The notes beneath the pieces are model-generated. The model ran no database searches and had not been told where the DNA came from. It saw nothing but the letters and a program-made list of their open reading frames with translations. A program made the translations under genes and the position numbers. Below, piece by piece: positions 37,422 through 58,722 of a stretch of 64,000 bases of DNA (positions are counted from its first letter, which is position 1; each line of letters opens with the position of its first letter). The stretch spans positions 124,001 through 188,000 of the forward strand of contig JAHBTJ010000013.1 of assembly GCA_019638595.1 (NCBI GenBank), given 5' to 3'. The DNA comes from Chitinophagaceae bacterium. GTDB taxonomy: Bacteria; Bacteroidota; Bacteroidia; Chitinophagales; Chitinophagaceae.

Positions 37422-37723
37422 ATGTTGCGTAGTATTATCAAGGAGGAAATGAAAGCAGCGGTGCAGCAGGATGAGCTACTGACCAAAAAAGCGCTATGAA
37501 AATGAAAGGCGCAAGTAATTCCACCTTTATGAAAGCCATTGCAGATGGGATCGTAAAACCCCAATTGGTAAAGGAAAGAAAGAAGGCGATGTACCTGGAA
37601 TCAAAAGTGTTGAAGGCAATCGCAGATCGAATTTATAACTGTATCATAAACAAAAAACCGGGAGTTTCGTCAATCCACAAGAAATTGCAGTATTCATACC
37701 AAAATCTAATAAAAGTTATCTGA
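37422..37723 (+). pseudogene. frameshifted excisionase-type HTH gene
   Basis: MLRSIIKEEMKAAVQQDELL and TKKAL end at a stop, and the reading continues one base out of phase as MKMKGASNSTFMKAIADGIV to 37723. Joined, this is an HTH domain of the excisionase type found in Bacteroidota mobile elements. A single-base indel at about 37495 has disabled it. It ends by overlapping the tail of the large convergent NTPase gene. Confidence 0.55.
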
Positions 37724-40700
37724 ACCCCCTGTAAATATCCTTTCTCTCCTGTGCACTCCTCGTTTCTTCCCATTCCATGCGTTTCTCCAGGAGTTGTACA
37801 TGCAAATAGTATTTTACCGGTTCATTAAGTTCCTGAATAGCAGTCTTTACTTTTTGAAGTTCGATAATCCGATAATCTGACCATATAGCATTTCCCGAAC
37901 TGCTAAAATGATTGTTATTCCATTCAATCTTCTCAAATAATTCAAAGTCAGGATTTATCTTCAGGTAATGCTGTATTAACGATCCATAGTATTTTCCGAT
38001 GCAATTCCTCGAAATATAAACAGACATATTTATTGCATCCGGGTCTGAGGGGAAGTTCGAGATTATTTTTTGGAGAATATGTAAGGTAGACATGCTTGAT
38101 TCGTCACTGAGATTGGAAAAGAAAGTATTAGCGACATACTCATTTCTGTACCAGTCCTTATTTTTCAGGAAATAAAGCAGGGCGTCATAAATACCGGCCT
38201 CGATTCCCTGAATCCTCCATAGTTTGAAAAAATGACGCGAATTATGCGTAAATATCGGTCTGTATTCCTCATTCCGGAGATCAAGATATTCCAGTAAAAA
38301 GCGCTGATCGATGCTATATATCAATTCAAAGGCCTCACAGTCTACATCGAAATGTCGGTCAATATCATCCTGCTGAATGTACACGTGTTTACTAAGTGCC
38401 AGATTTTTCTCTATGATATCCGGGTGCTTTGAAAAGAAATTGTATGGAAGTTTAAACACAAATGTCGGATCGGCAACTCTCCTTTGGCTTAAAATCGTAA
38501 GTATGGTCAAATAAATTTCTTCGTTTATTTTCAGGAACCTTTCAAAATATTCCAGGTCAAAATGTTTCCCGGACGAACAGGTAGAAAAAAACAGGATGAC
38601 CTCGTCCACCATCTTTTCATTTAAAAGATTTTCCGGCAGGCGAATTAAAAACTGGTATTTCCACTCATCTGCACCATATGCAGTATTCTTTTTTAATAGA
38701 TCATAGAACTTTATATACCAATCTTCACCGATTTCAAATATCGCATTGGTGATCCGAAAAGGTGAAATAAATAACTTATTGCCCTCAGCCAGATAACTGT
38801 TAATTACCTGAAATCCTGTTTGAGGATCATGCTTTAGTAAATCCGATATCAAAATATCGCATCCATAGCTTACATTATTTGGCTCGTCAAAACGACTGTT
38901 TATTATTTTTAAAGCTTCCTCATAAAATACGAGGAATTCGGCTTCACTGCGAATGGTAAGTTTTTCAAGGATTTCATTGATCTTATACATTTCCACTTTA
39001 GCAAAATCCTGATATTGCTCGAAAAGTGTATCACGAAGGTCTGCGTCCCAGGTTAGTATCTGATAGATCTCGTACGTCTTACAGGTATATCTTGATTTGT
39101 AGTTTCCAATGCTTTCCAGGTCTGTTTTTAATCTTCTCACCTTACGGCAATATTTTTGCACATAAAAACAGTCGTCAAAATCGTTGACCGAAAACACCTG
39201 TGAAAATATTTTTAAGAAATATGGCAGGTCAAAATGAGCCGGAACGATTCCGAAATTTTCAATCGTCCTCAGATATTCATCCAGTATGGAATAAGCTATT
39301 TCCTTATCATCGCTAAAATTCATAACAAGAAATGTCCAGTATTTTTCTCTGAGCAATTCAAGGCCTTCCGTCATTTTCCAATCTTTCCCGTTTAAGCGGT
39401 AGGCTTCTTTTGGATAGAAGTTACCTAATGCAATTTTTTCAAACAAATAGTACAGTATAAATCTATTTGATTCGCTGTCTACCCTTTTAACCAGGAGATC
39501 AAAAATCAAATGCTGCCGTGTTAGTCCGCTGTTGAAGTCTTCCCAGTCGGGAGTAAAGCACTCAAGAAGGATTGAAAAAAGCGGCTTAAAAGAACCCGGT
39601 CGTTTACCGATATATTGTAGTGACAGCTCAAAGGCGGTGGCAATAATATGATGATCGTGAGAATAAAAAAGCTGTGGAAGAGTACTTAGATCATTATCAC
39701 GGGCTGTCGTCGTCGCCGGGTGAAATTTTCTTTCAATTAAAAAGTGAAGGCTTATAGATTCTTGCTGGTGCAGGTCCTGCGTCAAAGAATAAAATGCAGA
39801 CAAGGCATAGTCTGGAAAATATTTCCCAAATACATCAATGAAGTCAAGCGCTTTGTTTTTGTCCTCCTTAATGGCTGCCCAGTAATTTTGCAAATCAGCC
39901 TTTGCAATACTAAAAACTTTCTCGCTTCCGAAAGCCCGGCACGCCCCCTCAAAACTATCCCGCATCCTGTTCTTGTAATCTCCGAAGTAACGGTTGACAA
40001 AAAACGAAAACGGAATTACCTTCTTTTTAAAGATGGCGAGATAGAAAAAATATGTCGATAAAACCTGCTCGTTAATCTTCGCGGTGGAATCGCGATACAC
40101 ATCCACAATTTCAATATCCTGCAACTCCAGGCATTTTGAAATAAATTTTTCAATAGTAATACCGGCTGCCACTATATTTTTGATCTCACTTTGAGCCGTA
40201 AAATCTACAGTACCAAAGAAAGATAACAGGGAAATTGTTAGAAGAGTATCCGTATCCGCTAATATCGGGTTTTCATATTCTATCGATCTGAAATAGCCCT
40301 CAAAAATTTCCGCGGCTCCTGACAAAGCATCTATTCCCTGTTCTTTATATACTTTCAGGGCCATGAGTGCTAACCTGGCATTTCCCCCGGTAACATTATA
40401 AATTAAGTCTTTAACACGGCTTTCTAAATTTGGTTCCTCGGCAGAAAGTATTTGGTAAATTTCTTCAGCAGACAGCCTGTCGATGGTAAGTTCAAAAATA
40501 TCAGTATCCCCAAACGCCCTGTAGATCGTTTCTTTGGCATAATCCCTGACAGTCATTACAATTTTAATGGTACTGTCTTTACTTAAAGTTTGCTTGGCCA
40601 TTACAGAAAGCAAATTCTCTATCTGCCTGTTGGCATCATCAACAACCAGGATGTATTTTTTAGCAGGGTCAATATAAGACGGCAGATCATGGATGATCGA

Positions 40701-41444
40701 GCCTGCAGTTTGATAAATGTAATAAAGGGTATACTCAGGAAATTGGGAAATAAATTGTTCTACTGCTTCAATGGCAAGTTTGGTTTTGCCGACGCCGGGT
40801 GCTCCTTTGACCAATATACAGTCCTTGCTCTTAAATGCATTGAGCAGCGACTTTAATTCATTTTCCCGGCCGAATAATTGGTTTTCCAGGTTTGTCGCAA
40901 TTTTTTTTCTGCCATATAAATCGAGAAAACGCTTCCTGTCTATTATTTGCCCGGTGTCAGGAAGAATTCCTAACAGGTCCATCGCAACGGATGCACCCGC
41001 AGCCATCAGGTAAGGAATGATTGAATCATGTCCGATAATTGACAACTCGAAACCTTTCTCCCTGGCACTCGCTATCAATTGGTGATTGATGTCCAAACCA
41101 AGCGTGCTGGTACCGGCAAATGATACGATACATTCAACATCATTTATTTCTATTCCATGTTGTTTGATATCCATCAGGTCGTTCACATCGCGCGTTAATT
41201 TCTTCCCAAAACCACTTTTGTTTTTGGGATCTTGCGTGGTTACTTCTGATAATATATATTTTCCGTCCTTCCTGTAGATATAGGCATCCGGTTTACCGCG
41301 GCGTGTCTTTTGTTTTCCGGGAACGGAGCCCACGCTATGTAAATAGCCCGGATACAAGTGGTTCAGATAGGCGTTACAGATTTGCTGAAAAGTAGCGGGA
41401 TCTGTGCTGTTCAGTGCCTTCTGAATCGTATTGTATTTGCTCAT
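37716..41444 (-). CDS. nuclease-STAND NTPase, probable antiphage sensor
   Basis: A 1242-residue protein. Residues 1-160 look like a restriction-endonuclease-fold domain with RRGKPDAYI (D53) and YILSEVTTQ (E67), where the usual catalytic Lys is Thr69. Residues 185-430 are a P-loop NTPase with Walker A GAPGVGKT (214-221) and Walker B YILVVDDA (264-271), resembling nSTAND3-type domains. The last 800 residues are a long helical repeat array without named motifs, a likely target sensor. This is the effector-NTPase-sensor plan of Avs-like proteins. It is the last gene of the minus-strand defence operon, 77 bases after the amber-interrupted gene. Confidence 0.78.
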   Translation of the reverse strand: MSKYNTIQKALNSTDPATFQQICNAYLNHLYPGYLHSVGSVPGKQKTRRGKPDAYIYRKDGKYILSEVTTQDPKNKSGFGKKLTRDVNDLMDIKQHGIEINDVECIVSFAGTSTLGLDINHQLIASAREKGFELSIIGHDSIIPYLMAAGASVAMDLLGILPDTGQIIDRKRFLDLYGRKKIATNLENQLFGRENELKSLLNAFKSKDCILVKGAPGVGKTKLAIEAVEQFISQFPEYTLYYIYQTAGSIIHDLPSYIDPAKKYILVVDDANRQIENLLSVMAKQTLSKDSTIKIVMTVRDYAKETIYRAFGDTDIFELTIDRLSAEEIYQILSAEEPNLESRVKDLIYNVTGGNARLALMALKVYKEQGIDALSGAAEIFEGYFRSIEYENPILADTDTLLTISLLSFFGTVDFTAQSEIKNIVAAGITIEKFISKCLELQDIEIVDVYRDSTAKINEQVLSTYFFYLAIFKKKVIPFSFFVNRYFGDYKNRMRDSFEGACRAFGSEKVFSIAKADLQNYWAAIKEDKNKALDFIDVFGKYFPDYALSAFYSLTQDLHQQESISLHFLIERKFHPATTTARDNDLSTLPQLFYSHDHHIIATAFELSLQYIGKRPGSFKPLFSILLECFTPDWEDFNSGLTRQHLIFDLLVKRVDSESNRFILYYLFEKIALGNFYPKEAYRLNGKDWKMTEGLELLREKYWTFLVMNFSDDKEIAYSILDEYLRTIENFGIVPAHFDLPYFLKIFSQVFSVNDFDDCFYVQKYCRKVRRLKTDLESIGNYKSRYTCKTYEIYQILTWDADLRDTLFEQYQDFAKVEMYKINEILEKLTIRSEAEFLVFYEEALKIINSRFDEPNNVSYGCDILISDLLKHDPQTGFQVINSYLAEGNKLFISPFRITNAIFEIGEDWYIKFYDLLKKNTAYGADEWKYQFLIRLPENLLNEKMVDEVILFFSTCSSGKHFDLEYFERFLKINEEIYLTILTILSQRRVADPTFVFKLPYNFFSKHPDIIEKNLALSKHVYIQQDDIDRHFDVDCEAFELIYSIDQRFLLEYLDLRNEEYRPIFTHNSRHFFKLWRIQGIEAGIYDALLYFLKNKDWYRNEYVANTFFSNLSDESSMSTLHILQKIISNFPSDPDAINMSVYISRNCIGKYYGSLIQHYLKINPDFELFEKIEWNNNHFSSSGNAIWSDYRIIELQKVKTAIQELNEPVKYYLHVQLLEKRMEWEETRSAQERKDIYRGFR

Positions 41445-44274: not shown

Positions 44275-45584
44275 TTAGGTTAATTTTTGATCGTAAAAAG
44301 TTTCCATAAACTCCTGAAATGTTTTGGTGTGAACGAGAAATTTATCGTCGAAGAAACTGTGGTGGTTTTTTTCAATGGTCCGCGGCTTCAGTTGATGACT
44401 GTCCCCTGTGGATGAAAAAATCTTTATTGCCGCCTCCAAATCCTGATCGTTCTTTAGAAAGCCCGGATCCACAATGACAACCTTTACATGCGGATTATGT
44501 TGTAAGGCAGTCCTGATCGATGCATTGATGTGTTCATCACCAAAAGAATAACCAACAACTACTATGGTATCAGCAAACGAGCAATCACTGTCAAATGCTG
44601 CCTGCATCTGCCGGAAAGGAGCGAATATACCTCTTTGCACTTTCTGATAACCTGTGATGATATTAGTTAACAGCAAAGTTTTGCTCTTTTCACTTTGCCA
44701 TATCGCAAGTTCATAGGAATTTTCTATAAGTCGCGGACCTTCTGTCAGATAGATGGCTGGATTGGATAACTGCCCCGCATCCCGGGCTTCCACGTCCCAG
44801 AAAATAGAGCCGTGCAGGTTGTAATGACAATCACAATCCTTATTGCCGAGAATAGACCTGACATCCGCTCTTAACCTGGAACCATATTCCAAAGTAGCCT
44901 TACTGTTAAATCCTTCAAATAACGAAAGTGGTTCAGCAGTATGCTCCAGTATAACTTTAAAGTTTCGTTCATAATTTAAGGTGTAGAGCCGGATGACTGA
45001 ATCATTGCTGATGCTCCTGATCCATCCGGTAAACAATTCATTCATGGTTGCATTTGCTTCCGTCAGCACGTTCGACTTACCTTTCGTGTGATAAGCGTAC
45101 TTCGTAATGCGTGTCACAACAGGCGTCAAAACCGTTGCCAGCAATTGCTGTAAAAAGAACTGTGCCGGAGTCTCAAAGTTTAAGGCACTTTTTGCAAATT
45201 CAGAACTTTTACCCCTTGGTATTTGTAGCTTAAATCCATGAGCGGCGTTCCTGCCTTCAATGGAAAAATTTAAGATCTCCTTTTCAAAACGGCTGGAAAA
45301 AAAAGTGCCGGGAATAGACGGCAGCTTACGCTGGCCGTCAAAGTAGGAGTAATAAACGATCAGTTCTTCAAGCACGTTGATGATCGTTTCAAAATTGATG
45401 TCATTTTCTGATAGTTGGGTTGCTGAAGCAACTCCTGGTAAATAAACTCGGTAATCGTCATATCACCGGAAACGGTAGGATAACCGGACTTTCTTACCAG
45501 TTGCGTTAGTTCGTAGGTACCCGGCGCTCCCCAACTCATGGCAGCGCCTGCTCCAAATAAAAGTACAGTTCGTTTTTTACGCAT
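44275..45584 (-). pseudogene. SIR2-domain defence gene with frameshift
   Basis: The start (45584) encodes RTVLLFGAGAAMSWGAPGTY, the NAD-binding GAG[AS] of SIR2-like proteins. After about 60 codons the phase slips by one base near 45405-45412; in the other frame the sense resumes as ENDINFETIINVLEELIVYY and runs to 44275. It includes LYTLNYERNF, NLHGSIFW (HG) and VVVGYSFGDEHI, all SIR2 features. Restoring one T gives about 436 residues. SIR2 effectors deplete NAD+ on infection. As read, the gene is inactive. Confidence 0.8.
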
Positions 45585-45835
45585 ATCCTCAAAGATCGTA
45601 CAGGACTTTCATAGCTTCCTTTTCTCGCAAATGAATTTCCCTATTGATATGCTTTCATAGACATTTAATTTTCATCTTCGCTTGAAATAAATTCGGATGG
45701 AATGTCACTATCAGCCGTTGTACCATGGCGACGAGGGTTATGTTGTATGCTTCCTGAAATGCGGTTGCTTTCGTGTAGCATTCAAAACGAAATCATGCAG
45801 GTTTGTATAAAAATGATATTCCTTATGCATACTAC
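45585..45835. other. non-coding upstream region of the SIR2-AbiE cluster
   Basis: About 250 bases without a gene. It probably carries the promoter of the minus-strand defence cluster, but no clear TAnnTTTG box could be assigned. Confidence 0.35.
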
Positions 45836-45861
45836 AAATAGCCCCAATTGAGGGGCTATTT
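45836..45861 (-). terminator. hairpin terminator of the small-peptide transcript
   Basis: AAATAGCCCC (45836-45845) and GGGGCTATTT (45852-45861) form a 10-bp stem with a 6-base loop directly after the peptide stop. The U tail is weak on the minus strand. Confidence 0.65.
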
Positions 45862-45871
45862 ATTAGATGCT

Positions 45872-45958
45872 CTACTTTTTCTTAAACCAATCCCACAACT
45901 CAGTAAGTGTCTTAATTATTCCTAAGACACCTCCAATCATTAGAATCCATTCGGACAT
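45872..45958 (-). CDS. 28-residue hydrophobic peptide with Lys-rich tail
   Basis: A very short gene. The peptide starts MSEWILMIGGVLGIIKTL and ends LWDWFKKK: an amphipathic or membrane-spanning stretch with Trp at both ends and a basic tail, the shape of type I toxin or signalling peptides. It lies between a promoter with an unusual hairpin-array leader (upstream) and a terminator hairpin (14 bases downstream). Its coding part also holds an inverted repeat (45907-45914 with 45923-45930). I know no named family. Position between defence genes suggests a toxin or defence peptide, which is inference. Confidence 0.5.
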   Translation of the reverse strand: MSEWILMIGGVLGIIKTLTELWDWFKKK

Positions 45959-46145
45959 GTTAAATGATTTTTGAAACGTTCGTAACATTCAGTACCGTAG
46001 TGTTGGTAAAGTATGCTGCCTTGTCAGGCAGAAGTTGGTGTTCCCGAAGGAACCAGGATTATTTCCCTGTGAAGGGACTGTGTGTGTTGTTGCTCCCGTA
46101 AGAGCCTTGTATTTGTTGTCTTGTTAGACCAGATTCATAAAGAAC
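45959..46145 (-). ncRNA. five-hairpin array leader RNA
   Basis: Reading the minus strand, five tetraloop hairpins follow each other at 46129-46118, 46105-46092, 46077-46064, 46053-46040 and 46031-46016, with centres 23-28 bases apart. Stems are 4-6 bp; loops include TTCG closed by C-G and TACG, both UNCG type. Linkers are A/C-rich and should stay single-stranded. The array sits between a promoter box at 46158-46151 and the 28-codon gene. Such regularity is not that of a riboswitch I know. Confidence 0.6.
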
Positions 46146-46150
46146 GGAAA

Positions 46151-46158
46151 CAAATATA
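46151..46158 (-). promoter_or_regulatory. -7 promoter box of hairpin-array transcript
   Basis: Minus-strand TATATTTG fits TAnnTTTG exactly. A TTTA about 21 bases upstream could serve as the -33 box. Transcription would start near 46145. Confidence 0.55.
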
Positions 46159-46444: not shown

Positions 46445-46711
46445 ATGTATAATATTACTCTTAAACTTGGAGGGATATCTTACCAATTTGCTAATCCAAA
46501 AGCGGACGTAGGTAATCCCCGACTTAAAGAAATGCTTGATATTTTGGTTAAAGAATTTGAAGTCGTAGAACAATCATTTCCCGATAGAACATTAGACCTT
46601 TATTGGGATGATGCATGTAAAGATGATCTTCCAATAAAAATTTATACAAATAGCGAAAACGCAATTCTTCCGGTTGAAGCCTTAGCAGTTATTCAAAAGA
46701 AAAAAGGGTAG
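46445..46711 (+). CDS. hypothetical 88-residue protein
   Basis: A small acidic protein (MYNITLKLGGISYQFANPKA at the start) with mixed alpha/beta character and no membrane segment. Not recognised. Its stop lies inside a terminator stem. The convergent gene begins 24 bases further on. Confidence 0.55.
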   Translation: MYNITLKLGGISYQFANPKADVGNPRLKEMLDILVKEFEVVEQSFPDRTLDLYWDDACKDDLPIKIYTNSENAILPVEALAVIQKKKG

Positions 46712-46737
46712 ATTAACTTCTACCCCTTCTTTTTTTA
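46706..46737 (+). terminator. terminator between convergent genes
   Basis: GGGTAGA (46706-46712) pairs with TCTACCC (46719-46725), followed by a T-rich tract to about 46737. It serves the plus-strand gene. Confidence 0.7.
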
Positions 46738-46980
46738 ATTATTCGATTCTACATAATTAATACCGTTTGGTGTAATTCTTAAAAACGGTTTGAAAGCCAC
46801 TAAACGTAAATTAGCGTATCCTTCATTTTCCAGTCCTTTAGCCAAATCCATTAATTCAGTTTCCGAATCTGTTGGAATATTTGCATCAAGACAAATTTTC
46901 TTAACAGGTAATGGGTTTGCTTCGTGTCTGAATTTGTACAATTCTTGCAAAATTAAATTTGCTTTTTCGGTGTTTAACAT
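46735..46980 (-). CDS. hypothetical protein, winged-helix-like
   Basis: An 81-residue protein with KANLILQELYKFRHEANPLP, DANIPTDSETELMDLAKGLE and a final strand RITPNGINYVESN. The order helix, helix, basic strand and TPNGINYVE tail resembles small winged-helix proteins of Bacteroidota. Family not certain. It is convergent with the 88-residue gene. Confidence 0.55.
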   Translation of the reverse strand: MLNTEKANLILQELYKFRHEANPLPVKKICLDANIPTDSETELMDLAKGLENEGYANLRLVAFKPFLRITPNGINYVESNN

Positions 46981-50090: not shown

Positions 50091-50147
50091 TGAGAAAATT
50101 TCTCATATTTTAATAATATATCATATTTTTGAGAAAATTTCTCAAAA
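50091..50147. promoter_or_regulatory. twin palindromic operators of the Wadjet operon
   Basis: TGAGAAAATTTCTCA, a perfect 15-base palindrome, occurs at 50091-50105 and again at 50130-50144, where it extends to a 21-base palindrome (50127-50147) touching the first start codon at 50147. A TATTTTTG box (50124-50131) fits the -7 consensus. Two sites 39 bases apart suggest a dimeric repressor on both sides of the promoter. No Shine-Dalgarno is present. Confidence 0.65.
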
Positions 50148-51463
50148 TGTTGATCGAATTTTCAGTGGCTAATTACTTGTCATTCAAGGATAAAACAACT
50201 TTAAGCCTCCTTTCTGCATCAATTAAAGAGCATAAGGATGCCAATATTTTCTCTACCGAAAAATATGACCTGCTGAAAGGTTCAGTGCTCTATGGTGCCA
50301 ATGCAAGTGGGAAAAGCAACTTTATTAAAGCTATGTCCACTATGCGGAGGCTTATTCTCTTTTCCTTTGAGAAATCATCTACCGAAGAGTTGGGGATTAC
50401 TCCATTCCTATTAAATACCGAGACTGAAAATGCCCCCTCTTTTTTTGAAGTAGTTTTTCTTATTGACAATGTCCGTTATCGCTATGGGTTTGAAGTGGAC
50501 GATACGGCTGTACATGCTGAATGGTTATACGAAGCACCCCGGCAGGCAGAAAAGCCATTATTCATCCGTGAAAAAGACGGGATTGAAGTGATGGAAAAAT
50601 CTTTCCCGGAAGCAAAAGACCTGGAGGAAAGAACAAGAGATAACGCTCTCTTTCTTGCAGTTATCGACCAGTTCAACGGGAAAACAGCAAAGAAGATCAT
50701 GCAATGGTTTAGCAATTTTATTACAGTATCGGGGCTAAGTCATGAAGGTTATAAAGCTGTGACTTTCGGGTTGCTGGAGGATAAAGATACCCGTCCTCTT
50801 CTACTTGATTTTTATAAGAAGCTGGATTTAGGCTTTGATGATATTACAACGGATAAAAAACCATTTGACCCAAAAGAATTGCCGGAAGATATCCCGGAAA
50901 GCCTGGTGAAACAGCTTATTACAGACCTTCAGGATTCTTTCCGCATTGATATCAGAACCATTCACAAGAAATATGATGCTAAAAACAAGGTAGCAGGGAA
51001 GGTCGAATTTGATATGCGAAGCCAGGAATCTTCCGGTACCAATAAGCTATTCAATATTTCGGGGCCAGTGTTCGATGTTTTGAATGACGGTGGTGTATTG
51101 GTTATTGATGAGCTGGATGCCAGCTTGCATCCTTTACTGACACTTGCGATTACTAAGTTATTTAATTCAGCAGAATTCAATCAAAAAAACGCCCAACTGA
51201 TTTTTGCTACGCATGATACAAATCTTTTGAATTATGGAAACTATCGCAGGGATCAGATCTATTTTGTAGAGAAGAATAAATACGGAGCATCCGAAATGTA
51301 TTCACTGGTGGAATACAAGGAAGAAGGCAAAACCATTCGTAAAGACCGTTCTTTTGAGAAAGACTATATCGAAGGTCGCTATGGCGCTATTCCTTTCATT
51401 GGTAATCTGTCAAATGTTGTAAAGGAATGGCAAAATACAGTAGAAAATAAAATGAGATTATAA
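50147..51463 (+). CDS. AAA-type ATPase heading the Wadjet operon
   Basis: A 438-residue ATPase of the AAA_15/21 OLD-like group: FSVANYLSFKDKTTLSLLSA, Walker A LYGANASGKSNFIKAM, Walker B GGVLVIDELDASLHP and a conserved His in IFATHDTNLL. No TOPRIM or nuclease domain is attached. RloB-type partners are absent. It is 33 bases before jetA and shares the palindrome-controlled promoter, so it seems to be an added component of this Wadjet operon. The ATG at 50147 follows the palindrome; one at 50129 lies inside it. Confidence 0.82.
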   Translation: MLIEFSVANYLSFKDKTTLSLLSASIKEHKDANIFSTEKYDLLKGSVLYGANASGKSNFIKAMSTMRRLILFSFEKSSTEELGITPFLLNTETENAPSFFEVVFLIDNVRYRYGFEVDDTAVHAEWLYEAPRQAEKPLFIREKDGIEVMEKSFPEAKDLEERTRDNALFLAVIDQFNGKTAKKIMQWFSNFITVSGLSHEGYKAVTFGLLEDKDTRPLLLDFYKKLDLGFDDITTDKKPFDPKELPEDIPESLVKQLITDLQDSFRIDIRTIHKKYDAKNKVAGKVEFDMRSQESSGTNKLFNISGPVFDVLNDGGVLVIDELDASLHPLLTLAITKLFNSAEFNQKNAQLIFATHDTNLLNYGNYRRDQIYFVEKNKYGASEMYSLVEYKEEGKTIRKDRSFEKDYIEGRYGAIPFIGNLSNVVKEWQNTVENKMRL

Positions 51464-51496: not shown

Positions 51497-52921
51497 ATGA
51501 ACTACGAAAAAGCCTTATCCCTTTATCGCAATGACAAAACATTGCAGCTATTGCGGGCAGAACATTTTCCGCTGCTGGTAGGCTTTTTTCATTTAGCATT
51601 CAAGCAGCAGGATAGAATCTCATATACTCAAAGCGAATTACAAAGCCTCCTGGCAGATTACCTGTATGCACTCGAAAGGCAGGATATAAATGAATATAAT
51701 AAGTCGCCCCATGAATATCTTTCCCGTTGGGCACAACAGGGGTATTTGCGCAGGTATTATGAAACCGCGGATGAACCGGTATATGAACTCTCTCCCGCTA
51801 CTGAAAATGCACTCAAATGGCTGGAAGACCTGAACAAGCAGCAATTTGTAGGTACCCATAGTCGCTTATTACAGTTTTTTCATTTGCTGCAGCAAATCGT
51901 TAATACCACCTCCGGGCCTTATGAACGGATACAACAACTACAGGCAGAGCGCAATAAGATTGACAGGGAAATAGAGCAAATACGTCAGGGGAATTTTGTA
52001 AAGCCATCCGATACCCAAATTAAGGAAAATTACTTTTTGGCAGAAGAAACTGCGAGACGCCTGCTTTCCGACTTCCGGCAGGTGGAAGAGAATTTCCGTG
52101 AACTGGACACCCAAACCCGCCAGACAATTGTAAAAAGCAGTCTCGCAAAAGCCGATTTATTGGACAATGTTTTTGAACAGCAGGATCACCTGTGGAATAC
52201 GGATCAGGGTAAAAGTTTCCGCGCTTTCTGGGAATTTCTGATGAGTGAGCAGATGCAGGACGAGCTGGAAAACTTATTGAGTAAGATGAATGAGATACCT
52301 GCGATACAGGAAATCAAAAAAGAACAAACAGTAGACAGGATTAAAACCAACCTTGTTGATGCCGGCGATAAAGTAAACCGGAGTAATGACGGCTTGATCG
52401 AGCAACTCCGGAAATTTGTGGAGCAAAAGAATCTTTCGGAAAGCCGGCATATACTACGTAGCATCGAAGAGATAGAAAGCCTGCTGCTGGAACATATTGA
52501 AACCATTAGCTCCCGGGAGTTTCTTTTGGAAATAGACGGGCTTTTTAAACCCATGCTTATTATGGAACGACCGTTATTCAGCCCACCGGTCAAAGTTTCT
52601 TTTGACAGAACCGATATCCGGGATGGAATGCCGGAGGCTGACACTAACCTGTTGTTTGAACAGTTTTATGTGGATATAGAAGCGCTCCGAAACAATATAA
52701 AACAGGCGTTGCGAAACAAGACCCAGGTAGCACTCTCCGAACTGCTCGATTTGTATAAACCTCAAAAAGGCGTGACAGAAATTTTAGCTTATATGCAAAT
52801 AGCAGCAAACGACAAAAAGCACTATATAAACAGGGAGTTGCAGGAAGAATTAGTCGTTGAAAATATAGAAAGTAATAAAAAATATTCACTAAAAGCGCCG
52901 GTGATCATATTCAACAGGTAA
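51497..52921 (+). CDS. jetA: Wadjet subunit JetA (MukF-like, DUF3375)
   Basis: A 474-residue kleisin-like protein with winged-helix N-terminus (NYEKALSLYRNDKTLQLLRA, YLSRWAQQGYLRRYYE), a long coiled-coil middle and a C-terminal winged helix. DUF3375/JetA proteins link the SMC heads in the JetABC complex that loops small circular DNA. It stops two bases before jetB. Confidence 0.88.
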   Translation: MNYEKALSLYRNDKTLQLLRAEHFPLLVGFFHLAFKQQDRISYTQSELQSLLADYLYALERQDINEYNKSPHEYLSRWAQQGYLRRYYETADEPVYELSPATENALKWLEDLNKQQFVGTHSRLLQFFHLLQQIVNTTSGPYERIQQLQAERNKIDREIEQIRQGNFVKPSDTQIKENYFLAEETARRLLSDFRQVEENFRELDTQTRQTIVKSSLAKADLLDNVFEQQDHLWNTDQGKSFRAFWEFLMSEQMQDELENLLSKMNEIPAIQEIKKEQTVDRIKTNLVDAGDKVNRSNDGLIEQLRKFVEQKNLSESRHILRSIEEIESLLLEHIETISSREFLLEIDGLFKPMLIMERPLFSPPVKVSFDRTDIRDGMPEADTNLLFEQFYVDIEALRNNIKQALRNKTQVALSELLDLYKPQKGVTEILAYMQIAANDKKHYINRELQEELVVENIESNKKYSLKAPVIIFNR

Positions 52922-52923
52922 TT

Positions 52924-53490
52924 ATGGAACAGGGATATTCGCTCAGTCTTATTGCCTTACTCAAGGGAATTGTATTTAACCATCAGAAAGAGATATGGGA
53001 CAATCTTCTGCGATATGAACCGGATGTAAAAAAGTATTTTCAGCCCGTTGGGTTAGAATTATATCTCGACAAAAGTGAAGGGTATGCATTCCTGCGACAA
53101 AATCAATGGGAAGATGATACGGAGCTGCCTCGCTTAGCCGAAAAACGGCAGCTAAATTTTCTTACTTCCTTATTATGTATTGTACTAAGGAAATACCTGC
53201 TGGAGCAGGATGCACAGGGCGGATCTGTACGGTCTATCATCAGCGAGCAGGAGATGATGAACCGCATAAAAGTCTTTCTGCCTGTTACCAATGATGAAGC
53301 AAAGCAGCAGGAGAAAATAATCAGCACCATTAACAGGGTGATTGACATCGGCTTTCTACGGAAGCTGGATGACCAGGAAAAAAATTACGAAGTTCACAGG
53401 ATCATTAAGGGGTTTATAAATGCAGATGTGATTGACGATACGTTGAGAAAATTAAAGGAGTATGCGGAAGAAAAGAATAATGTTGGGTAA
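52924..53490 (+). CDS. jetB: Wadjet subunit JetB (MukE-like, DUF4194)
   Basis: A 188-residue protein of two winged helices, with LLKGIVFNHQKEIWDNLLRY, LNFLTSLLCIVLRKYLLEQD and LPVTNDEAKQQEKIISTINR, typical of the DUF4194 KITE protein of Wadjet. It binds JetA and modulates the SMC complex. In standard operons jetC follows directly; here a truncated RhuM gene intervenes. Confidence 0.88.
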   Translation: MEQGYSLSLIALLKGIVFNHQKEIWDNLLRYEPDVKKYFQPVGLELYLDKSEGYAFLRQNQWEDDTELPRLAEKRQLNFLTSLLCIVLRKYLLEQDAQGGSVRSIISEQEMMNRIKVFLPVTNDEAKQQEKIISTINRVIDIGFLRKLDDQEKNYEVHRIIKGFINADVIDDTLRKLKEYAEEKNNVG

Positions 53491-53531
53491 TTTTTAAACA
53501 GTTTTTAAGAACGCTTAAAAAGTTTACTACT

Positions 53532-54140
53532 ATGAATAATACTAATATTCTGATTTACCAGGGGGAAGACGGTAAGATACGCATAGAAACCCGTTTGGAG
53601 GACGAAACGGTTTGGCTTACCCAGGCACAAATGGCTGAATTGTTTCAAAAAAGCAGGGTTACAATAACAGAACACATTCGCAACATATTCAAAGAGAAGG
53701 AATTGGAAGAAAATTCAGTTAGTCGGAAATTCCGACTAACTGCGGCAGATGGAAAAGAATATGATACAATCTTTTACAATCTTGATGTTATCATTTCTGT
53801 TGGCTATCGTGTAAAAAGTCAGCAGGGTACCCGTTTTCGCCAATGGGCTACGGGCCGGCTGCGGGAATATATAGTGAAAGGGTTTACGCTTAACGACGAA
53901 TTGCTAAAACAAGGTGGCCGGGGAAATTACTTTGAGGAACTATTAGCCAGGATCAGGGATATCCGTTCATCGGAAAAAGTCTTTTGGCGGAAAGTCTTAG
54001 ATATATACGCTACCAGCATTGATTATGATCCCCGGCAGGAAACTTCTATAAAGTTTTTTCGGACGGTACAAAACAAAATGCACTGGGCGGCACACGGCAA
54101 CACAGCCGCAGAAGTGATTTTTAATAGAGCAAACTGCTAA
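53532..54140 (+). pseudogene. truncated RhuM-family gene inside the Wadjet operon
   Basis: A 202-residue frame with the N-terminal RhuM/virulence-protein domain: VWLTQAQMAELFQKSRVTIT, EHIRNIFKEKELEENSVSRK, YNLDVIISVGYRVKSQQGTR, FRQWATGRLREYIVKGF, and on to AAHGNTAAEVIFNRANC and a stop. Full-length members run to about 330 residues. In another phase the last 40 bases read IEQTAKKLESKKKKDD, which looks like the usual tail, so an out-of-frame internal deletion is likely. It may still make a short protein. Spacing to jetB (41) and jetC (26) keeps the operon intact. Confidence 0.7.
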
Positions 54141-54166
54141 GAAACTGGAATCTAAAAAGAAGAAAG

Positions 54167-57100
54167 ATGATTGACCTTTTTACTAATACCAATAATCCTC
54201 TCGCGGGTTTTCGCCTGCAATCCCTTGAAGTATTCAATTGGGGCACATTTAACCAGGTATGCTGGCAAATAGCGCCCAACGGTTATAATGCTTTATTAAC
54301 AGGAGATATTGGTTCCGGTAAATCCACATTGGTTGATGCCCTCACCTGTCTTTTGGTGCCTCATAACAAAATTGTATTTAATAAAGCTGCCGGGGCGGAA
54401 GGCAAAGAACGAAACCTGCTGAGCTATATCAAAGGCGAATACAAAAAAGAAAAGGAAGAAATTACTAAAGTCGCTAAAAAAATATACCTGCGGCCAAATG
54501 ATGATACCTATACCGTAATAGTTGGAAACTTCAGGAATGAAGGATATAATGAAGATGTTTGTCTTGCCCAGTTATTTTGGATCGGGAAGGACAGCAAGGT
54601 GGAAAAACTCCTTATCATCAGCACCGTTCCGCTAACTATCAAACAACATTTTAGTCATTTTGCTGATATTAACGAACTTAGAAAAAAATTGAGGAATACA
54701 GATGGTGTGCAATTGTTCAATGATAATTTCACCCAGTATAGCGAGCAGTTCCGGAGGTTATTCGGGATGAATAGCGACAAAGCTATCGATCTTTTTTATC
54801 AAACCGTTTCTATGAAGTCTGTAAGCAGCCTGACCGATTTTGTGCGCGAGCAGATGCTGGAAAGAACAGATGTAAAAGAGCAGGTTGCCGCATTATTGAA
54901 GCGCTTTGAAGACTTAAAGAAAGCGCACGAAGCCGTAGTACATGCCCGTGAGCAGTACCAGATATTGAAACCATTGACCGAAGCTTGTGTGGAATATGGA
55001 AACGTAAGCCGGGAAATTGAAAATATTGAAGCCATGCTCGAAGCCGCTCCTGCCTGGTTCGCAGAAAGGAAATGGGATTTGTTGCACAAAGCTATTGAAC
55101 AGGCAGAAGCTGACCTTGAAAAGCTAACACAACAACAACAAACTATCAGTAATGAATTGAGCAATCTCGAAAGCCGTAAACAATCCATCCTGATTGATAT
55201 TGCCAATAATGGCGGTAAACGGATTGAACAAATTGGTGATGAAATAAAGCGGCATGAACAGGATAAAGCGGCAAAGCGAAAGGAGTTTGACGATTACGGA
55301 CGCTCGGCATTACAGGCGGGACTAAAAAGTGTGCAAAAAGAAAAAGATTTTGATGAGAATATAAGCAGGGCTGATGAATTAAATGGGGAGTGCCTGCGCC
55401 TTGAAGGCGAATACCGTAATCAAAGAGATAACCTGATAAGCGAATTGCGAAAACAGGAGGTCGAATACCAGGCAGAGTTAAAAGAACTTCAATCTCTGCA
55501 GGAACGCAAAACCCAGATTCCTGGCTGGCTGGTGGGGTTCAGGACCCGCTTATGCGAGGACCTGCGCATTGATGAAGAAGAACTGCCTTTTGCGGGAGAA
55601 TTATTAAAAGTGAATGAACAGGAAGCCGAGTGGGAAGGTGCTATGGAAAAGTTGCTTCATGATGCAGGCATCAGTCTGCTGGTGCCTGCCGCACACTATA
55701 AAAGTGTAAGCAGGTATGTAAACGATAATCCTTTGCGAAGCGCCGATGGACGGGGTATAAAGCTTACTTACCTGGAAGCAGATATACATAACCTTAACCG
55801 GGTTATCAAAGACCTGGATGAAGACAGCATCATTTATAAAATAGACATTAAACCTGATACGCCTTTTTATGACTGGCTGGAAAACTATCTGCAGCGGAGC
55901 TTTGGCGATTATATATGTACAGATGTCAATGGGCTGCAGAAAGTACCATTTGGTATCACCCGGCAAGGTTTGATAAAAAGCGGGCGCATACGTCATACAA
56001 AAGATGATAGGAAACGGATTGATGATCGCAGGAATTATGTATTGGGCTGGAGCAATACCGAAAAAATAAAGGCGCTGGAGATTTCGGTGAATAAGCTCGA
56101 ATCTGAAATTAGGAATATAAGTCATAGAAAGAAGAAGGTAGAAGAATTGGAAAGAGATAACCAGAACTCCCGTATTGTGGTTGACAGGATACTGCAATAC
56201 AAGGATTTTTCCAGGATCAACTGGCAATATCATGTAACCAGCATATACGAGCTGGAATCGGAGCGTAATCAACTATTAAACAACAACGATATGCTCGCCG
56301 AGTTGGAAAAGAACAAAACAGAAGTTGAACAGCAGATTAAGGGCGCAAAAGAAAAAGAGAACCAGGCTACGGAAAAAGTGGGTGGTTTGAAGAACGTACT
56401 TGTTAATTACAAAGAGCAACTTGTTAATGCAGAAAAAAGCAAAGAACAAATTGATCAGCATCGGAAGGATAAATGGTTTCCTGTGCTGCATGAAAAACTT
56501 ACTGATGTTAATCTTACTCTGAAAAATATTGACAACCGGCAGGAAGATTTCCGCAAACAATACCAGGGAGAAAACGGGGAACTAAAAAAATTACGTACTA
56601 AACAAACAAAGTTGCAATCTTCCATAGAAAGTTTGATGAGGCAAATAAAAGAACATTCAAAAGCAGAATACAGTGAAATTGCAGAAAGCATTGATGCACG
56701 GGCGGAGTACATCAAAAAGTTTGAGCAGCTTAACCGGGAAGATCTGAAACGGCATGAAGACCGGTTCAAAGAGCAACTCAATACCAATGTGATCAACAGC
56801 ATTTCTGTATTTGACAATCAGTTGCAAAAACACGAAAAAGACATTAAACAGAAAATAGATACTATCAACCAGCACCTTTCGGAAATTGTGTATAATGCCG
56901 CCCAAGACACTTATATCAAGATTTTGATGGATGCTACTGCCAATAAGGATGTCCGGCTCTTTAGGGAAGAATTGAAGAAATGCTACATTCATTCCTTTAG
57001 CAGCAATAATGAACTCTATACAGAAGAAAAATATGAACAGGTAAAAAGCATACTGGATCGCTTTGCCAGTATAGAATATGCAGATAAAGAATGGACAAAC

Positions 57101-57565
57101 ACAGTGATAGATGTGCGCCAGTGGTTTGAGTTTAACGCCAGCGAACGATTTCGCTCCGATGATAGTGAAAAGGAATTTTATGAGGGTTCGGGCGGCAAAA
57201 GCGGAGGACAAAAGGAGAAGCTGGCTTATACCATCCTGGCAAGTGCACTCGCTTACCAGTTCGGGTTGCAGTTTGGGGAAAGTAAAAGCAGGAGCTTCAG
57301 GTTTGTAGTCATTGACGAAGCCTTTGGAAGAGGAAGTGACGAAAGTACACGTTACGGATTAGAACTGTTTAAAAAATTAGATCTTCAATTACTTATTGTA
57401 ACGCCTTTGCAAAAAATTCATGTCATCGAAAATCATGTTAACTCTTTTCATTTTGTCAGCAACCGGGAGGGCAATAATTCAGAGGTAAGCAATCTTACAA
57501 AAGAGGAATATGAAGAGAAGAAAAAGCAATATAATGTTGTAGCTCAAAACACAGAAATCGAATGA
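54167..57565 (+). CDS. jetC: Wadjet SMC-like ATPase JetC
   Basis: An 1132-residue SMC/MukB-like motor. The N-terminal head has Walker A TGDIGSGKSTLVDALTCLLV (about residues 43-62), followed by long coiled-coil arms and a hinge-like region in the middle. The C-terminal head has the signature EGSGGKSGGQKEKLAYTILA and Walker B FRFVVIDEAFGRGSDESTRY. With JetAB it extrudes DNA loops and senses small circular plasmids, which JetD then cleaves. It overlaps jetD by an ATGA junction. Confidence 0.93.
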   Translation: MIDLFTNTNNPLAGFRLQSLEVFNWGTFNQVCWQIAPNGYNALLTGDIGSGKSTLVDALTCLLVPHNKIVFNKAAGAEGKERNLLSYIKGEYKKEKEEITKVAKKIYLRPNDDTYTVIVGNFRNEGYNEDVCLAQLFWIGKDSKVEKLLIISTVPLTIKQHFSHFADINELRKKLRNTDGVQLFNDNFTQYSEQFRRLFGMNSDKAIDLFYQTVSMKSVSSLTDFVREQMLERTDVKEQVAALLKRFEDLKKAHEAVVHAREQYQILKPLTEACVEYGNVSREIENIEAMLEAAPAWFAERKWDLLHKAIEQAEADLEKLTQQQQTISNELSNLESRKQSILIDIANNGGKRIEQIGDEIKRHEQDKAAKRKEFDDYGRSALQAGLKSVQKEKDFDENISRADELNGECLRLEGEYRNQRDNLISELRKQEVEYQAELKELQSLQERKTQIPGWLVGFRTRLCEDLRIDEEELPFAGELLKVNEQEAEWEGAMEKLLHDAGISLLVPAAHYKSVSRYVNDNPLRSADGRGIKLTYLEADIHNLNRVIKDLDEDSIIYKIDIKPDTPFYDWLENYLQRSFGDYICTDVNGLQKVPFGITRQGLIKSGRIRHTKDDRKRIDDRRNYVLGWSNTEKIKALEISVNKLESEIRNISHRKKKVEELERDNQNSRIVVDRILQYKDFSRINWQYHVTSIYELESERNQLLNNNDMLAELEKNKTEVEQQIKGAKEKENQATEKVGGLKNVLVNYKEQLVNAEKSKEQIDQHRKDKWFPVLHEKLTDVNLTLKNIDNRQEDFRKQYQGENGELKKLRTKQTKLQSSIESLMRQIKEHSKAEYSEIAESIDARAEYIKKFEQLNREDLKRHEDRFKEQLNTNVINSISVFDNQLQKHEKDIKQKIDTINQHLSEIVYNAAQDTYIKILMDATANKDVRLFREELKKCYIHSFSSNNELYTEEKYEQVKSILDRFASIEYADKEWTNTVIDVRQWFEFNASERFRSDDSEKEFYEGSGGKSGGQKEKLAYTILASALAYQFGLQFGESKSRSFRFVVIDEAFGRGSDESTRYGLELFKKLDLQLLIVTPLQKIHVIENHVNSFHFVSNREGNNSEVSNLTKEEYEEKKKQYNVVAQNTEIE

Positions 57566-58722
57566 TCAGTCCGGATGAGATAAAAAAGCAGGCGCTGAAA
57601 TGGTGGAGACCATTACTGCAAAGCACTATATCCGGAGAGACATTTTTTCCTAAATCAATAGACCGTATCGGGAAGATTCAACCCGGTCATATCACGCAAC
57701 AGTTTGAGGTACTTCAACAAGAAGTTGCCACGCTTTATCTACATTCTAAAAATCAAACCGGTATTGGTTACCTGGTTAAAACGACGGAAAAGAATTTCCG
57801 GCGTACGGGTAGTCACGAACTGCCTGACGCTATTGTTTTTGAAACTGTTGAAGACTATGTAAGCTTCACTGATAAAAAAAAGGAATGGAAGGTTTTTCTA
57901 CTTAATTATGAGAAAGTAATAAAAGGCATCCCCCGGTTAAAAGCGTGGGTTTTGCCGAATTGTATGTGGTTAACAGATGCGCAAACTAATTGGGATGATA
58001 TACTTAAAGTATGCCGTTATTTTTTGGATAATCCCAGGCCCAATCTGTATCTGCGGCAGTTGCCCATAGCTATCCATACAAAATTCATTGAAGACAATAT
58101 AACGATTATCCAGTCGCTGCTTGATTTTCTTATTCCGCATCACATCCGAAATCATCAGCAGAAGCGATTTGCAGAGCGGTATTTTCTGAAATATGACGAG
58201 CCGCTTATCAGAATACGCATGTTGGACACACACCTGACCTGCTTTAATACTTTCTCTGATATTAGTATACCACTTTCAGATTTTGAAAAACTGGATTTGT
58301 CAGCAAGGAATATCTTGATTACAGAGAATAAGATGAATTTTCTAACATTACCGGCTATGCCTTCTACTATTGCTGTTTGGAGCGGCGGTGGATTTAATGT
58401 CAGCTATCTCAGAAACGTTGTCTGGCTGGCAGAGAAGCATATTTTATATTGGGGAGATATTGACGAACATGGCTTTCAGATTCTCCACCAGCTTAGAAGT
58501 TATTATCCCAATACACAAAGCATAATGATGGATTGTAAAACTTTTGAGCATTTTTCGGAATTTGCAGTAGCAGGGGCACGCAACAAATCTGAGCAGCTTT
58601 CATTACTAAATGATGAGGAGCGAAAACTTTTTGAGCAGTTAAAGCTGATGGATAAAAGCAGGTTGGAGCAGGAAAAAATCTCTCAGGGGTATGTCGAAGA
58701 ATATTTAAAAAGTCTTTTATAA
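57562..58722 (+). CDS. jetD: Wadjet nuclease JetD (Toprim, DUF3322/DUF2220)
   Basis: A 386-residue protein. The N-terminal region (DUF3322) opens with SPDEIKKQALKWWRPLLQST; the C-terminal Toprim domain has the metal site ILYWGDIDEHGFQILHQLRS (DxDxxG), related to topoisomerase VI. It cuts plasmid DNA trapped by JetABC. All catalytic-looking residues are present, so the system appears complete. Confidence 0.92.
   Translation: MISPDEIKKQALKWWRPLLQSTISGETFFPKSIDRIGKIQPGHITQQFEVLQQEVATLYLHSKNQTGIGYLVKTTEKNFRRTGSHELPDAIVFETVEDYVSFTDKKKEWKVFLLNYEKVIKGIPRLKAWVLPNCMWLTDAQTNWDDILKVCRYFLDNPRPNLYLRQLPIAIHTKFIEDNITIIQSLLDFLIPHHIRNHQQKRFAERYFLKYDEPLIRIRMLDTHLTCFNTFSDISIPLSDFEKLDLSARNILITENKMNFLTLPAMPSTIAVWSGGGFNVSYLRNVVWLAEKHILYWGDIDEHGFQILHQLRSYYPNTQSIMMDCKTFEHFSEFAVAGARNKSEQLSLLNDEERKLFEQLKLMDKSRLEQEKISQGYVEEYLKSLL

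Follow-up and report, generated by a model that had tools for sequence, protein, structure and literature searches.

A structured minus-strand unit with tandem hairpins and a predicted 28-residue peptide in a defence island of a Chitinophagaceae genome

The locus lies in a 64-kb window (the whole stretch of DNA analysed, 64,000 nucleotides) of a Chitinophagaceae genome, where a small minus-strand unit (45836-46158) is located between a tyrosine integrase and a run of SIR2, AbiEi and nSTAND3 genes. On the upstream side come ORFs of 88 aa (opposite strand) and 81 aa, then the integrase with its Arm and SAM-like domains. The run on the downstream side, in the orientation of the unit, begins with the SIR2-like and AbiEi-like genes; after three ORFs that gave no Pfam match above the cut-off it ends in a gene for an nSTAND3 NTPase. 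The surroundings are a defence island. Across the integrase from the unit, and just upstream of a complete type I Wadjet system (JetA, JetB, JetC and JetD, PADLOC profiles), lies an AAA ATPase gene matching the AbiLi (E 5e-99) and AriA (E 2e-38) profiles; an ORF between JetB and JetC matches PADLOC PDC-S05 and is presumably RhuM-like. The 1242-aa protein that ends the SIR2/AbiEi run combines its nSTAND3 domain with a long C-terminal region for which Pfam gave no match above the cut-off. Upstream of the unit, two small convergent ORFs meet at a stem scored as a terminator on either strand; the 88-aa one had no match in 175 other family genomes. The 10-bp inverted repeat inside the ORF of the unit (45932-45905) was considered as a core site of the tyrosine recombinase and rejected; with up to 2 mismatches allowed, the 7.06-Mb genome has no second copy, which argues against such a site.

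The SIR2-like gene is interrupted by a change of reading frame, which is either a broken gene or a sequencing error. Its two parts (74 and 366 aa) both match a single uninterrupted homologue of 441 aa from another member of the family, at 47% over 70 and 49% over 359 aligned positions. Three of 194 genomes besides the own genome matched in the SIR2 homologue search. In family member G226 (L015 1584-5974), the SIR2 gene overlaps an upstream 1022-aa gene by 4 nt; the product of the latter we take to be a helicase/methylase restriction enzyme, and the two genes are possibly a two-gene defence pair.

Read along the minus strand, the unit carries a TATATTTG box, five tetraloop hairpins, a 28-codon ORF and a 10-bp stem (Table 1). 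All of these had been reported in an earlier note, with a hairpin spacing of 23-28 nt, and all were located in the sequence; the centres are 25, 28, 24 and 23 nt apart (array 46129-46016). Some of the finer description stood in part. UNCG-type loops, ascribed to the array, occur in two of the five hairpins (UACG and UUCG), the other loops being AACA, UCAC and GACA. The four linkers between hairpins, described as A/C-rich, have an A+C content of 83, 93, 60 and 75%. Of the 10-bp terminator the stem was retained; its U-tail failed the rule of the terminator scan as well as a second U-tail rule, and the 3' stem (45861-45836) is perhaps a weak or leaky terminator. New with respect to that note are a 38-codon form of the ORF, a 4-codon upstream ORF and two strong hairpins, 45969-45935 and 45932-45905. 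The 4-codon ORF may be a chance occurrence. In the first of the two hairpins lies the ATG of the 28-codon form, with A and T in an internal loop and G paired. Positions 45970-46012 showed no structure excess (z -0.15).

Table 1. Features of the unit and of its surroundings, with positions in the window.
Feature	Position	Strand	Remark
-7-type box TATATTTG	46151..46158	-	TAnnTTTG match; predicted start near 46145
4-codon upstream ORF (ATG AAT CTG GTC TAA)	46124..46138	-	overlaps hairpin 1
Hairpin 1: 4 bp, loop AACA, weak	46118..46129	-	
Hairpin 2: 5 bp, U-G closing pair, loop UACG	46092..46105	-	
Hairpin 3: 5 bp, loop UCAC	46064..46077	-	
Hairpin 4: 5 bp, loop cUUCGg	46040..46053	-	
Hairpin 5: 6 bp, loop GACA	46016..46031	-	
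Extra weak hairpin: 6 bp, 3-nt loop	45975..45989	-	over ATG of 38-codon form
38-codon ORF form	45872..45988	-	ATG directly after TGA
28-codon ORF (stop included)	45872..45958	-	hydrophobic amphipathic peptide, C-terminal FKKK, net charge +1
Start-codon hairpin, 7 + 4 bp	45935..45969	-	around 28-codon start
10-bp hairpin, 8-nt loop	45905..45932	-	within ORF; single copy in the genome
3' stem: perfect 10 bp, 6-nt loop	45836..45861	-	poor U-tail
SIR2-like gene, split over two frames (45584-45360, 45375-44275)	44275..45584	-	candidate read-through target
nSTAND3 NTPase gene	37716..41444	-	
88-aa ORF	46445..46711	+	
Stem between the two small ORFs	46700..46731		
Second small ORF	46735..46980	-	
AbiLi/AriA-like ATPase gene	50129..51463	+	
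Type I Wadjet system	51497..58722	+	
ORF between JetB and JetC	53532..54140		

TAnnTTTG is the -7 box of Bacteroidota promoters. Exact matches to it number 55 in the window against 80 expected by chance, and by itself the motif is weak promoter evidence. The box at 46151 is the only exact match on the minus strand between 44170 and 46948. The earlier designation as a promoter box held for the -7-type motif; no TTTG/TTG (-33) element was found within 27 nt upstream of 46158-46151.

Folding energies were compared as z-scores. The unit from its predicted start (45836-46145) scored -5.79 on the minus and -2.59 on the plus strand, and 45836-46158 scored -5.29. The 282 nt of upstream flank scored 0.18 (minus) and -0.54 (plus), and the 241 nt of downstream flank (45590-45830) 1.11 and 0.84. 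The excess of structure coincides with the limits of the unit and leans to the minus strand, also favoured by linkers low in G and U and by U-G pairs in the stems that are mismatches on the plus strand. The contrast of -5.79 with 0.18 and 1.11 on the two sides supports the proposal, made before, of one minus-strand RNA of about 310 nt. Among the parts, the hairpin array scored -2.82 (minus) and -0.98 (plus), so by itself it is moderately unusual in energy; the ORF scored -4.48 and -2.64 and the 3' stem -5.12 and -4.65. Only 57 of 3000 synonymous versions of the ORF (same peptide, window codon usage) were as stable. Since the ORF itself is folded, either the RNA was selected to hide the ORF, as type I toxin messages do, or the product is the structure itself, with an incidental ORF.

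Chains of at least four hairpins, each of -3 kcal/mol or lower and spaced 16-36 nt, appeared in none of 2000 dinucleotide shuffles of 46012-46134; in this count hairpin 1, weaker than -3 kcal/mol, was left out, and the hairpin at 46053-46040 was scored in an alternative pairing. In 3.33 million strand-bases (the window and 80 stretches of 20 kb from the own genome) there were 20 chains of at least three hairpins with every linker at least 70% A+C. The chain of the unit alone reaches four among them, and it is one of 2 scored as non-coding. A further 5.76 million strand-bases gave 38 such chains: 2 in 0.80 million from the own genome, 0 in 0.74 million from family members, 7 in 1.76 million from other bacterial contigs and 29 in 2.45 million from viral contigs. 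One of the 38 has four hairpins and sits in a 299-codon frame, so no other non-coding A/C-linked chain of four was found in about 9.1 million strand-bases. With the linker condition dropped, seven hairpins were chained in L058 and five in L062, and three chains of 4-5 hairpins near integrase homologues were scored as non-coding. As longer chains exist elsewhere without that condition, the rarity lies in the combination of such a chain with A/C linkers and a non-coding place, not in rows of hairpins.

The predicted 28-residue peptide has a GRAVY of 0.42, a best 19-aa window of 1.45 and a net charge of +1, and with such modest hydropathy an amphipathic membrane helix fits better than a strong transmembrane segment. 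Intergenic ATG ORFs of 18-60 aa were collected from 1.66 Mb, with nested starts counted apart, and two of the 1110 forms, both belonging to this ORF, reached its hydrophobicity and also had K or R at three or more of the five C-terminal positions; more hydrophobic forms exist among the 1110, but with fewer basic end residues. Both features recurred in 4 of 22,055 ORFs from 20,000 block-shuffled copies of the unit, and in both counts the thresholds were those chosen after the peptide was seen. Single-sequence AlphaFold predicted one helix, residues 11-37 of the 38-aa form, starting at the Met of the 28-codon form, and gave the first 10 residues no secondary structure (mean pLDDT 61); the model speaks in favour of the 28-codon form over the 38-codon form. 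The codon usage score of the ORF is -0.070 against 0.053 for synonymous draws (sd 0.059), about 2 sd lower. This slight deviation is either an argument against coding or the price of RNA structure, and the ORF is short enough that it may be incidental. A gene for a hydrophobic peptide with a Lys-rich end, as suggested earlier, thus gains indirect support from the rarity among 1110 forms and from the predicted helix.

Matches to the peptide were absent from Pfam at E up to 5; the best matches in PHROGs were to a family of unknown function (E 0.2) and to a holin family (E 0.24), and the best among solved structures had E 0.73. Membrane-active type I toxins are described, in passages of PMC8309996, as shorter than 60 aa and hydrophobic, with a putative transmembrane helix and cationic residues that are generally C-terminal. 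The predicted peptide shares these traits as given there, being 28 aa long with GRAVY 0.42, a predicted helix and a KKK end, and is plausible as a putative toxin.

Homologues of the unit were sought by DNA, peptide, covariance model and pattern, and none was recognised, a minority of the weak matches having been inspected individually; with no relative found, any function of the unit is a guess. The DNA search of 98 relatives gave two matches, the own genome and a 32-bp match (L002) within a 200-aa ORF, presumably a phosphatase, which was rejected as chance. No homologue was recognised in plasmids and phages.

In the peptide search of the family, 90 of 294 genomes matched at E up to 1, the own genome included. 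The seven best other matches (L004-L010) lie in open frames of 44 (with stops) to 382 and were rejected. Among four weaker short-frame matches, also rejected, three overlap frames of 134-300 codons; the fourth (L479, G050:C50, ~126550-126730) has 60 codons and contains a hydrophobic stretch, weakly similar to the peptide of the unit, that ends near NIWTWIK (E 0.75). Upstream of these four, L479 included, there is no A/C-linked hairpin chain. At the level of the class, 4 of 335 genomes matched at E up to 0.05, the own genome included, and the other three matches were rejected as lying in frames of 308-915.

A covariance model, R1, was built from the single sequence of the unit. Of 344 family genomes 39, the own genome included, had an R1 match at E up to 0.5; the best score outside the own genome was 22.4 bits. 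Fifteen of the 20 best other loci (L018-L037) lie within open frames of at least 100 codons. L018, the best locus outside long frames, shows two hairpins with A/C linkage but lacks a small ORF after them, and the remaining four have one A/C-linked hairpin or none; all 20 were rejected. Eight R1 alignments kept one or few stems each and never the array. Searched with R1, 45 viral loci scored at most 16.2 bits, and 23 loci in the neighbourhood of SIR2 or integrase homologues at most 15.3 bits (L442). No R1 match at E up to 1 fell within 1.5 kb of any of the three homologues of SIR2. The link to defence that had been claimed for the unit comes only from its position between the integrase and SIR2/AbiEi/nSTAND3, and that it acts against phages is likewise guessed from where it lies.

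Pattern scans of viral contigs returned 3, 0, 42 and 0 stretches, and the 42 were rejected because each falls within or next to a frame of 113 codons or more. One of the 3, L068, encodes a potential 28-residue hydrophobic peptide, with a BLASTP score of 9.6 bits against that of the unit and no hairpin array, and was taken as chance; its GGVFGIIK was selected by the scan pattern itself. The peptide-end pattern WxW.KKK-stop was found in at least 118 genome-contig stretches and 106 viral-contig stretches, and at least 169 places passed a stricter stop rule. Among the matches listed, no such frame of up to 110 codons has a four-hairpin chain upstream. L285 shares the LWDWFKKK end, but in a 21-codon frame lacking a comparable hydrophobic helix and a chain, and was rejected. 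In 20 stretches round integrase homologues there was no chain of at least three hairpins with linkers of at least 70% A+C. Rfam gave 0 matches over the gathering cut-off in the window and 7 below it around the unit (E 1.3-4.9). In the literature covered, mostly other than subscription papers, no description of a hairpins-plus-peptide layout was seen.

The reading we tentatively prefer is a structured mRNA of about 310 nt that would keep a membrane-active 28-residue peptide low until the RNA is opened. We infer a transcript starting near 46145 and ending, perhaps leakily, at 45836. The short independent hairpins on A/C linkers would fold as the RNA emerges and give a stable, poorly translated 5' leader. 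Together, the start-codon hairpin and the hairpin in mid-ORF would allow little peptide until the RNA is unfolded, cleaved or bound. By analogy with type I toxins such as TisB, the peptide, as one amphipathic helix with a cationic C-terminus, would be expected to insert into the inner membrane. What the analysis shows is the sequence features, with their departure from chance, their strand and their limits; transcription, translation, repression by structure and membrane activity are inferred. Points against this reading are the lack of a recognised homologue and of a standout antisense candidate, the codon usage and shortness of the ORF, the poor U-tail and -33 element, and the modest hydropathy of the peptide. 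Going further, the unit might be a self-restrained toxin message, in which its own hairpins replace an antisense antitoxin and cleavage or unfolding of the leader frees the peptide, for example when a phage attacks RNA or translation; this extension we regard as quite unlikely.

Among type I toxin mRNAs, TisB/IstR-1 of E. coli is nearest to the unit. Both have a short hydrophobic helical peptide (28 residues here, 29 in TisB) with a charged C-terminus and a small structured mRNA, translation of which is here probably limited by 5' structure, and an inhibitory 5' UTR structure is reported for the tisB mRNA in passages of PMC8309996. The unit differs in that no antisense RNA was found, its leader is a row of separate hairpins and no sequence relation was detected. 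On the plus strand, no exact TAnnTTTG occurs between 44061 and 46954; two loose boxes (45666 and 46381) have a TTG-type element 21-22 nt upstream, a pairing of motifs that may be chance. In an antisense duplex scan, the best of 602 overlapping windows (z -3.2) lay in the AbiEi-like gene. By promoter-box and duplex scans no antisense RNA candidate stands out around the unit, and one may exist without showing in the sequence. Given no antisense RNA, a putative toxicity and no sequence relation to a known toxin, the unit, though it would work like a type I toxin message, was not classed as a type I toxin-antitoxin system.

That the unit is instead a structural or sponge RNA, with tandem hairpins offering loops or A/C linkers to a protein and the ORF incidental, is rather unlikely. 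Leader and ORF are both structured, the ORF beyond codon need (57 of 3000 synonymous versions as stable), and hairpins strung on unstructured linkers resemble those of CsrB and other protein-binding RNAs. Against this, the five loops all differ, whereas sponges of the CsrB type repeat a motif, no Rfam family matches, and the profile of the peptide is unmatched in the 1110 intergenic ORF forms. Other structured RNAs were also compared with the unit. Type III ToxI RNAs also have several structured units in a row on a small RNA, but as repeats of one sequence, and the hairpins here all differ; no endoribonuclease was recognised in the adjacent genes (integrase, SIR2-like, AbiEi-like, nSTAND3). 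DRT and retron ncRNAs likewise are structured RNAs of about 300 nt in defence islands; this assignment was rejected, as contig C5 has no match to the reverse transcriptase profile PF00078 and all seven in the genome fall on four other contigs.

The unit could also be a leader or attenuator of the SIR2/AbiEi/nSTAND3 run, in which the ORF would encode a leader peptide and the 3' stem would terminate conditionally, so that disturbed translation or folding, for example upon infection, would cause read-through into SIR2 (45584, 252 nt on). We consider this unlikely. SIR2 and the following genes are on the strand of the unit, and the stem has a poor U-tail and fails plain-terminator rules. The box at 46151 being the only exact minus-strand match in its interval, SIR2 has no exact box of its own, and its transcription from that box past a leaky stem is possible. 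The order of promoter, hairpins, short ORF, 3' stem and a same-strand gene run is that of leader-peptide attenuators. Unlike these, the unit has a five-hairpin array before its ORF, which attenuation does not need, 252 nt to the next gene and an ORF with no run of one codon kind. About 250 nt with no excess of structure (z 1.11, 45590-45830) separate the stem from SIR2, which here is split over two frames. Near its three homologues R1 found nothing, and in G226 the 4-nt overlap joins the SIR2 gene to an upstream gene. If the unit were an attenuator, it would be a translation-sensitive switch ahead of a defence run.

That the unit is a remnant decaying in a mobile island, or an orphan accident with no present function, would agree with the broken SIR2 gene beside it and with the lack of a recognised relative in the searches made, and is very unlikely given nearly perfect hairpins and an intact ORF, where decay should have left mismatches, and an array seen in 0 of 2000 shuffles.

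For the preferred reading of a structured peptide message, the phylum matters. According to passages of PMC12390103, before a cyanobacterial case in 2025 the only phyla with known type I systems were Proteobacteria, Firmicutes and Tenericutes, and the suspicion there falls on searches built on the traits of loci already described; Bacteroidota, to which the unit belongs and to which its promoter box and integrase type also point, is outside the type I phyla named in them. For marine genomes, passages of PMC12654330 give a count of 90 orphan toxins of type I; a separate count there, of 225 orphan toxins from Bacteroidota, comes with no statement of type, so predicted type I-like toxins in Bacteroidota are possible. 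A find made from structure first, with no sequence relative, would show where missing type I systems may lie. If the self-restrained message were true, it would be a type I-like system with no separate antitoxin, in Bacteroidota.
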